Positions 25,189-26,577 of a stretch of 29,919 nucleotides of DNA are shown here, piece after piece. Origin of the DNA: a virus; the IMG/VR virus record IMGVR_UViG_3300047546_000412, positions 1 through 29,919 of that record, one strand, 5' to 3'. Under the pieces are notes generated by a model. It saw nothing but the letters and a program-made list of their open reading frames with translations. It ran no database searches and was not told the origin of the DNA. The first letter of the stretch is position 1. Every line of letters begins with the position of its first letter. Both the position numbers and the translations under genes were made by a program.

Positions 25189-25262
25189 GCAACAGTAGCC
25201 AAGTTGGTTAAGGCCCCGAACTCATAATTCGGTTATCGTCAGTTCAAGTCTGACCTGTTGCA
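25189..25262 (+). tRNA. tRNA with CAT anticodon (elongator Met, or Ile with modified C34)
   Basis: A full cloverleaf can be drawn: acceptor GCAACAG (25189-25195) pairs with CTGTTGC (25255-25261), discriminator A at 25262. The D arm has a GCC/GGC stem. The anticodon stem is CCGAA/TTCGG (25216-25220, 25228-25232) with loop CTCATAA and anticodon CAT at 25223-25225. The variable loop is TTATC and the T arm GTCAG/CTGAC with loop TTCAAGT. CCA is not encoded. The paired 1-72 end and the lack of GGG/CCC in the anticodon stem argue against an initiator. Met and Ile-CAT cannot be separated by eye. Confidence 0.9.
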
Positions 25263-25864: not shown

Positions 25865-26284
25865 ATGGTAACAACATTTGCTATGGATCTATTCAGAGAT
25901 CCATTTTTTATTGGCTTCAACCGTGAAGTAGAAAGACTAAATAATATCCATCGTGAGGCTACGGCCCAGTCTTTCCCGCCATATAATATTGTCAAGGTAA
26001 ACGATGACTCATATCGTGTATCTTTGGCAGTGGCAGGATTTGATAAGAAGGATATTGAGGTATCAGTAGATAATCAAACTCTTATTGTTAAGGGTGAAGT
26101 TACTACAGAAGATACTGGAGAAATTCTTCACAAAGGAATTGCTGCCCGTAAATTCACACGCACATTTGCGCTTGGTGAATATATGGAAGTAGTTGGAGCC
26201 GAATTCAAGAACGGTATGCTACATATTGATGTAGATCGTATTGTTCCTGAAGACAAAAAGCCAAAAACAATCAAAATTAAATAA
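25865..26284 (+). CDS. Small heat shock protein, Hsp20/alpha-crystallin family
   Basis: 139 residues. An N-terminal segment (MDLFRDPFFIGFNREVERL) is typical of IbpA-like proteins. The alpha-crystallin domain (about 40-130) has YNIVKVNDDSYRVSLAVAGFDKKDIEVSVDNQTLIVKGE and NGMLHIDVDRIVPEDKKPKTIKIK, including the I-x-V/I C-terminal tail (IKIK). The ribosome site AAGGAGG (25852-25858) is ideal. It is an ATP-independent holdase that would keep host or virion proteins soluble during infection. Such genes are best known in cyanophages and are less usual in actinophages. Own promoter plus strong ribosome site imply high expression. Confidence 0.93.
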   Translation: MVTTFAMDLFRDPFFIGFNREVERLNNIHREATAQSFPPYNIVKVNDDSYRVSLAVAGFDKKDIEVSVDNQTLIVKGEVTTEDTGEILHKGIAARKFTRTFALGEYMEVVGAEFKNGMLHIDVDRIVPEDKKPKTIKIK

Positions 26285-26286
26285 GG

Positions 26287-26292
26287 TATAAT
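26287..26292 (+). promoter_or_regulatory. -10 element upstream of the structured leader
   Basis: TATAAT at 26287-26292, just after the hsp20 stop codon. Unlike most others it lacks a TGn extension, and no clear -35 is seen. The predicted start near 26299 coincides with the first stem of the folded leader. Confidence 0.45.
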
Positions 26293-26296
26293 AGAG

Positions 26297-26376
26297 ATCT
26301 GCACCCCGTCACTGGGGAGTCGCAGATGCGGGCATAGTTGCCTAGGATACACCTGAGCATGTGTATAAACTGCTCA
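26297..26376 (+). ncRNA. Structured 5' leader: two hairpins and a predicted H-type pseudoknot (riboregulator candidate)
   Basis: Hairpin 1: ATCTGC (26297-26302) with GCAGAT (26322-26327), and inner CCCC/GGGG (26304-26307, 26314-26317). Hairpin 2: GGCA (26331-26334) with TGCC (26339-26342). Pseudoknot: stem 1 ATACAC (26347-26352) with GTGTAT (26361-26366); stem 2 TGAGCA (26354-26359) with TGCTCA (26371-26376). Its crossing loops are 1 nt and AAAC, lengths that suit a compact H-type fold. AGGAG (26386-26390) and the ATG at 26395 follow. It may sense a ligand or protein and control the FmdB-type gene. No known riboswitch consensus was recognised. Confidence 0.5.
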
Positions 26377-26394
26377 TCTAACTTTAGGAGAAGA

Positions 26395-26577
26395 ATGCCA
26401 AACTATGATTATAAGTGTGTGATTTGTAACTACACAAAGGAAATACCAAAACCATTCTCACAAGCAGATATGGTTGAACTTTGCGAAAAATGCGGTGCTG
26501 CAATGGTTAAACAGTTTGGTACATTTGGCATTCAGTTTAAAGGTAACGGCTTCTACAAAACAGATAACGCTAAGTAG
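26395..26577 (+). CDS. FmdB-type zinc-ribbon protein
   Basis: 60 residues from the ATG at 26395; AGGAG lies 4 bp upstream. The frame is open back to 26338, but that part is the structured leader. MPNYDYKCVICNYTKEI and CEKCGAAMVKQFG form the CxxC...CxxC ribbon of the FmdB family (N-terminal MPxYxYxC is its mark). The end reads FKGNGFYKTDNA, as in family members. Bacterial relatives are called regulators of amidase genes; the biochemical role is open. In a phage it may bind nucleic acid or act in regulation. Confidence 0.85.
   Translation: MPNYDYKCVICNYTKEIPKPFSQADMVELCEKCGAAMVKQFGTFGIQFKGNGFYKTDNAK

Follow-up and report, generated by a model that had tools for sequence, protein, structure and literature searches.

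The REP/BIME repeats of enterobacteria are structured intercistronic elements, often located just behind stop codons, which protect the upstream mRNA from 3' exonucleases and differentiate the mRNA levels of genes. In plant and animal viruses, the xrRNAs are compact pseudoknots that leave stable RNA ends, their ring fold stopping 5'-to-3' enzymes. The translational operator of T4 gene 32 is a pseudoknot in phage mRNA, upstream of the gene that gp32 autoregulates, and is found in one phage group. Widespread RNA elements that combine covarying stems with a near-invariant core are rare, and among those known many turned out to be riboswitches, ribozymes or RNAs related to the ribosome.

The phage element that we describe here shares with the REP/BIME repeats its location between genes, just behind stop codons. 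The repeats, however, are hairpins of unrelated sequence on bacterial chromosomes and contain no pseudoknot, whereas the phage element has 28 nt and fixed loop bases. Like the xrRNAs it is a compact viral pseudoknot, but it matches them neither in sequence nor in size, and its resistance to nucleases is only proposed. With the luteovirus-type frameshift pseudoknots (BWYV) it has in common the H-type fold, a very short first loop with a C, a one-base U junction and an A-rich last loop; yet it lies in non-coding RNA behind stop codons, its second stem is longer than its first, and the reading frame closes about 30 nt after the stop. In size, topology and, in the window, its occurrence as a single short element before a ribosome-binding site, it is similar to preQ1-I, SAM-II and other small pseudoknot riboswitches, from which it differs in having no Rfam match and in not being tied to one pathway. 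The T4 operator serves one gene, whereas the phage element adjoins unrelated genes.

A sequence-only reading of the locus had recognised no known class, and neither did Rfam 15: at gathering and relaxed thresholds (E≤5 for the window, E≤1 for 13 other loci), the only matches were to tRNAs, apart from one chance match below its gathering score. The published literature that we searched by concept and by sequence letters, which did not extend to subscription papers, preprints and supplementary catalogues, yielded no description of the element, so that an unnamed listing is possible. A catalogue of candidate structured RNAs from viruses and phages by Fremin and colleagues (2023), reportedly with more than ten thousand entries, might include the motif unnamed. 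There is almost certainly a real, uncatalogued and widely distributed class of phage RNA here.

The window, by which we mean the whole stretch of viral DNA that was analysed, comprises positions 1-29,919 of IMG/VR record IMGVR_UViG_3300047546_000412 (29,919 nt) and contains one copy of the pseudoknot. The gap that holds it, 26285-26394, separates an Hsp20-type gene from an FmdB-type zinc-ribbon gene. The layout given by the sequence-only reading, with two hairpins followed by interleaved stems and a knot that ends 9 nt before AGGAG, is correct. The features of the locus are:

25865-26284, plus strand: upstream gene for an Hsp20-type small heat-shock protein (open reading frame; homologous upstream genes match HSP20/phrog_432)
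26282-26284, plus strand: hsp20 stop codon TAA (open reading frame)
26287-26292, plus strand: promoter-like -10 hexamer TATAAT, after the hsp20 stop and before the leader (sequence)
26297-26327, plus strand: leader hairpin 1, module TCTGCACCCC..GGGGAGTCGCAGA (MFE fold; module swapping among relatives)
26330-26343, plus strand: leader hairpin 2, GGGCA/TGCCT (MFE fold; variable in relatives)
26349-26376, plus strand: conserved pseudoknot element ACACCTGAGCATGTGTATAAACTGCTCA (pattern across IMG/VR and phage records; covariation)
26386-26390, plus strand: Shine-Dalgarno sequence AGGAG of the FmdB gene (sequence)
26395-26577, plus strand: downstream gene for an FmdB-type small zinc-ribbon protein of 60 residues (open reading frame; homologues; Zn_ribbon_8 matches among downstream genes)

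The MFE fold of the whole leader has z = -2.24. A tRNA gene is located at 25189-25262, upstream of the hsp20 gene.

Geometry alone is weak evidence for such a knot. Pseudoknots with two 6-bp stems and the same geometry occur about 0.6 times on average in shuffled windows (range 0-3), and a second one is found on the minus strand of the real window. The pseudoknot is significant because it is conserved across phages. When cultured phages were searched with the leader by blastn, the unrelated roseophages SIO1, P12053L and ICBM1/2 matched it, with the pseudoknot at the centre of the match and genes for ribonucleotide reductase and glutaredoxin on either side; matches in Crassvirales were weaker. 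A first scan of IMG/VR with the core returned at least 120 stretches, in which the triplet 5' of the core varies in step with the triplet 3' of it, copy after copy; further copies within the same genomes have different S2 stems that nevertheless stay complementary. In a second scan the variable triplets of both stems were left free and the commonest S2 form was excluded. Among the matches listed, 105 were distinct, with both stems paired in 87, S2 in 101 and S1 in 89, where chance would pair about 5% per triplet. A third scan, for S2 forms starting with a pyrimidine, gave 12 stretches, mostly paired, with both C-G and U-A at that position. Sequence and pairing pattern together had no match in 2.86 Mb of reversed sequence.

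The sequence-only reading had proposed to look for compensatory changes in related phages, and these are abundant. Across 150 distinct sequences, 95.3% of cells were paired against 75.3% after shuffling, and 313 cells had changed on both sides against 105. The covariation score was 0.536 (shuffled 0.166), a value reached by none of 500 shuffles, and the signal collapsed when the partner columns were slid by one. Three pairs in each of S1 and S2 covary. G-U combinations outnumber A-C combinations (48 to 19), which indicates that the element acts as RNA of the sense strand; copies share one strand in nearly every genome, with no match to the control pattern. The element is thus, as the sequence-only reading had supposed, a true compact H-type RNA pseudoknot, and both of its stems are kept by compensatory change.

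The consensus of the class, NNNCCUNNNCAUGNNNNUAAACUGNNNA, is 28 nt long and is laid out as NNNC-C-UNNNCA-U-GNNN-NUAAAC-UGNNNA (S1 5' strand, L1, S2 5' strand, L2, S1 3' strand, L3, S2 3' strand). The following parts were assigned in the window, with counts taken, among the matches listed, from the 280 that have both triplets paired:

26349-26352, plus strand: S1 5' strand NNNC, covarying with 26361-26364
26353, plus strand: L1, an invariant C (280 of 280 matches, at a position left free in the search)
26354-26359, plus strand: S2 5' strand UNNNCA, its three middle pairs covarying with 26373-26375
26360, plus strand: L2, U (252 of 280 matches)
26361-26364, plus strand: S1 3' strand GNNN (covariation)
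26365-26370, plus strand: L3, NUAAAC, here AUAAAC (UAAAC in most matches; outer S1 pairs unsupported)
26371-26376, plus strand: S2 3' strand UGNNNA (covariation)

The first base of S2 is U in 278 and L3 has 6 nt, mostly NUAAAC, in 272 of the 280 matches, and about 14 of the 28 bases are nearly invariant. Both stems had been read as 6 bp long, with a single-base first loop and AAAC as the last. This holds for S2 and for the first loop; the conserved S1, by contrast, has 4 bp (26349-26352 with 26361-26364). Two further A-U pairs do form outside it in the window copy, but in 253 sequences the next pair outward is no commoner than in shuffled sequences (0.296 vs 0.377) and the second faces an invariant U. 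As these outer pairs are unsupported, the last loop is AUAAAC and not AAAC. Judged by known H-type geometry, the loop lengths suit groove crossing, with 1 nt (L1) over the 6-bp S2 and, in most copies, 6 nt (L3) over the 4-bp S1. The fixed C, U and UAAAC loop bases would form base triples and so make the small knot mechanically stiff.

The element is spread through tailed phages of many bacterial phyla, almost always between genes. It occurs in hundreds of phage contigs, with one to seven copies per genome among genomes with a match. An exact scan of IMG/VR for one variant found 39 contigs. Scaled by the share of this variant in the first sample, this suggests, as a rough estimate, that between several hundred and about a thousand contigs in IMG/VR have the commonest S2; frequencies in IMG/VR are approximate, being figures from the matches listed, and the gene calls are simple ORF calls. 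Carriers among cultured phages or phage records include phiETA-like phages of Staphylococcus and phages of Lactobacillus, Streptococcus, Anoxybacillus, Moorella, Mycobacterium and Arthrobacter. Further copies are found in the deep-sea thermophilic phage D6E, in phages of Paracoccus, Roseobacter and Vibrio, in a Christensenellales phage, in cyanobacterial phages of Synechococcus, Microcystis and Nostoc, in gut Crassvirales and in one Microviridae record; Bacillus megaterium phage Page and a Rhizobium phage record have variant copies.

In bacterial genomes the commonest form had 11 matches among 84,980 GTDB genomes and none among 5,426 E. coli genomes, so the element does not share the chromosomal location of REP-like stabilisers. 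One of the 11 lies in a CRISPR spacer (L214:212-236) of an assembled Oscillatoriaceae cyanobacterium. The spacer contains the pseudoknot core without a single mismatch, which independently suggests that this is an element of phages and that hosts have sampled it from them. Weak matches were seen in Serratia, Arsenophonus and Rhizobium plasmid records. In Chaseviridae of Erwinia and Pectobacterium (L395:1001-1029, L396:1001-1025), S2 is intact and covaries (GAG/CTC, GAA/TTC) and S1 pairs poorly; these copies are perhaps a degenerate or variant form. A restriction to hosts with RNase J, an idea that came from the absence in E. coli, was dropped, the copy in the Vibrio phage group being good and those in Chaseviridae partial.

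Among the matches listed, the spacing between the upstream stop codon and S1 has a sharp peak at 5 nt (29 of 252), and only three copies come closer. More than half of the matches lie over 25 nt from the called stop. A start codon seldom follows the element at less than 13 nt, and this spacing is most frequent at 19-22 nt. In gaps longer than 120 nt (n = 147), 57 elements are no more than 25 nt away from the upstream stop, 39% where 9.8% would be expected, and 19 within 45 nt of the start (13% seen, 17% expected). This excess near the stop in long gaps indicates that the end of the upstream gene, and not the downstream start, is the anchor. In 12 loci a tRNA starts 2-11 nt after the element, compared with about 0.2 expected and 2 tRNAs upstream; these loci comprise one tRNA-Asp lineage and cases with Asn, Val and Leu, and a tRNA also follows the element in Arthrobacter phage Molivia and Nostoc phage NMeng1. 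After dereplication, upstream families recur among 107 proteins (HSP20 in 11, DUF932 in 8), whereas no Pfam family exceeds three among 87 downstream proteins, which include three glutaredoxins and two zinc ribbons. In Gram-positive capsid operons the element recurs between the minor-head/portal gene and the genes for scaffold and major capsid protein. The strand orientation of the neighbours, from crude gene calls, showed no clear 5' or 3' preference; the distances in long gaps were more informative. The next gene faces the opposite way in 13 of 249 loci, which is no enrichment, so that the element is not a general mark of operon ends. In the first bases after it, G is scarce.

Among the relatives linked to hsp20 there are two layouts. 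At 6 of 57 loci the element follows the stop by 5-16 nt, and in five of these a promoter-like box comes next, which would make the element part of the hsp20 3' UTR alone. At 49 of the 57 the box precedes the element, as in the window, which places it in the 5' leader of the next message. A promoter-like hexamer is also found before the element behind other upstream genes. The leader hairpins before it are exchangeable modules in relatives.

We tentatively propose, at somewhat less than even confidence, that the element is an intercistronic bookend of mRNA, a knot that resists ribosomes and by which mRNA ends are set or protected; the blocking of exonucleases and the effects on expression are inferred. 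The knot would fold just behind the terminating ribosome and stay folded, in the space that lies between the footprint of that ribosome and the one of the ribosome that initiates next. The spacings of 5 nt and 19-22 nt approximate the edges of ribosomes, so the knot could remain folded while both neighbours are translated. By blocking exoribonucleolytic decay it would set or protect the ends of messages. Mainly this would concern the 3' end of the upstream mRNA, whether made by RNase P, an endonuclease or a terminator; at the tRNA loci, RNase P processing would leave the knot as the extreme 3' end of that message. Neighbouring genes of one operon could in this way differ in mRNA lifetime. In the phage group of the window, where the knot lies within the FmdB 5' leader, its stiffness might shield a 5' end. 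The proposal requires neither a ligand nor sequestration of the Shine-Dalgarno sequence by the element. The 3'-UTR layout at hsp20, the anchoring to stops, the tRNAs behind the element and the recurring upstream genes count in favour of the bookend; the placement in a 5' leader at the 49 loci with a preceding promoter-like box counts against it. The position in Firmicutes phages before highly expressed scaffold and capsid genes suits 5' protection and processing equally. The broader picture, in which ligand-free 28-nt knots would serve phages of most major bacterial phyla to stop exoribonucleases, begin or end mRNAs and tune gene dosage within operons as a bacterial counterpart of the xrRNAs, we hold with slightly less confidence still.

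Bases as strongly conserved as these might also reflect the binding of a ligand or protein. The sequence-only reading had compared the leader to small translational riboswitches, but such a switch of FmdB is not supported in view of the unrelated downstream genes, the anchoring to stops, the tRNAs behind the element and the 7 of 48 distinct FmdB upstream regions that are without any such leader. A more general riboswitch, in which the pseudoknot recognises a metabolite commonly present in infected cells and gates the ribosome-binding site that follows, would be in keeping with the fixed geometry and the nearly invariant half of the bases, which resemble compact aptamers, with the position 9 nt before AGGAG in the window and with the redox- or metal-related genes among its downstream neighbours. 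It loses its main support through the absence of a fixed downstream pathway and of overlap with the Shine-Dalgarno sequence and through a position that tracks the upstream stop and not the start; some neighbours are tRNAs, and there is neither a conserved expression platform nor an Rfam relative. We consider it quite improbable. Strict loop bases, the scarcity of G just after the element and the presence of several copies per genome would equally fit a site at which an RNase or RNA-binding protein, of the host or of the phage, separates messages, or a self-cleaving RNA, as would its location where modules with different expression meet, for instance minor head and scaffold/capsid. Any such protein would, however, have to occur in hosts of many phyla, and the element resembles no Rfam ribozyme; we consider this reading unlikely.

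The 5-nt spacing with its sharp lower limit is where a knot would meet the entry channel of a stopped ribosome. The element could be a translational insulator, whose stiffness bars readthrough, scanning after termination or coupling to the following gene, or shields a following tRNA or terminator from unwinding by ribosomes, and copies do precede tRNAs. The large share of copies far from a called stop, and those in 5' leaders behind a promoter-like box, speak against this, and it appears rather unlikely. A pseudoknotted intrinsic terminator is highly improbable: a T-run follows within 14 nt in 16% of the copies close to a stop but distant from a start, compared with 3% of those with a close start, but 84% have none, genes and tRNAs often begin 2-30 nt downstream with no room for a promoter, and in the window FmdB can be transcribed from the TATAAT box only through the element. 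A stimulator of readthrough or frameshifting was rejected, the median in-frame extension past the stop being 30 nt and the distances falling in all three frames.

The element is a precise and easily mutated handle on how phages set unequal expression within one operon, especially where portal, scaffold and capsid genes meet in Gram-positive phages. Should it block RNases, it would also be a ready-made tool for stabilising bacterial mRNAs.

Several further observations concern the surroundings of the element. DUF932 genes (phrog_1221) of dissimilar phages repeatedly precede it (loci L223, L228, L101, L257, L134, L139, L171), and some copies in this group have a tRNA-Asp directly behind them. 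In Gram-positive phages, (U)UAUGCA and a hairpin recur between the pseudoknot and the scaffold ribosome-binding site (L334, L335, L342, L343, L377, L378, L380, L217). In the window, the hairpins before the pseudoknot (26296-26348) correspond to swappable cassettes of the relatives (TCTGCACCCC..GGGGAGTCGCAGA; GTCC..GGACACGGGCTAATAGTTACGCCTTGGGATA), as if the leaders were built from a kit. A second fixed module, GTCGGGGNAGACAGCGACNNNAAATAACTGG, which is not present in the window, directly precedes the pseudoknot in about 91 related contigs (e.g. L009, L013, L057, L080, L117, L129). It resembles a small pseudoknot itself (GTCG/CGAC and CAG/CTG), and each readable case examined has some form of the present element behind it.
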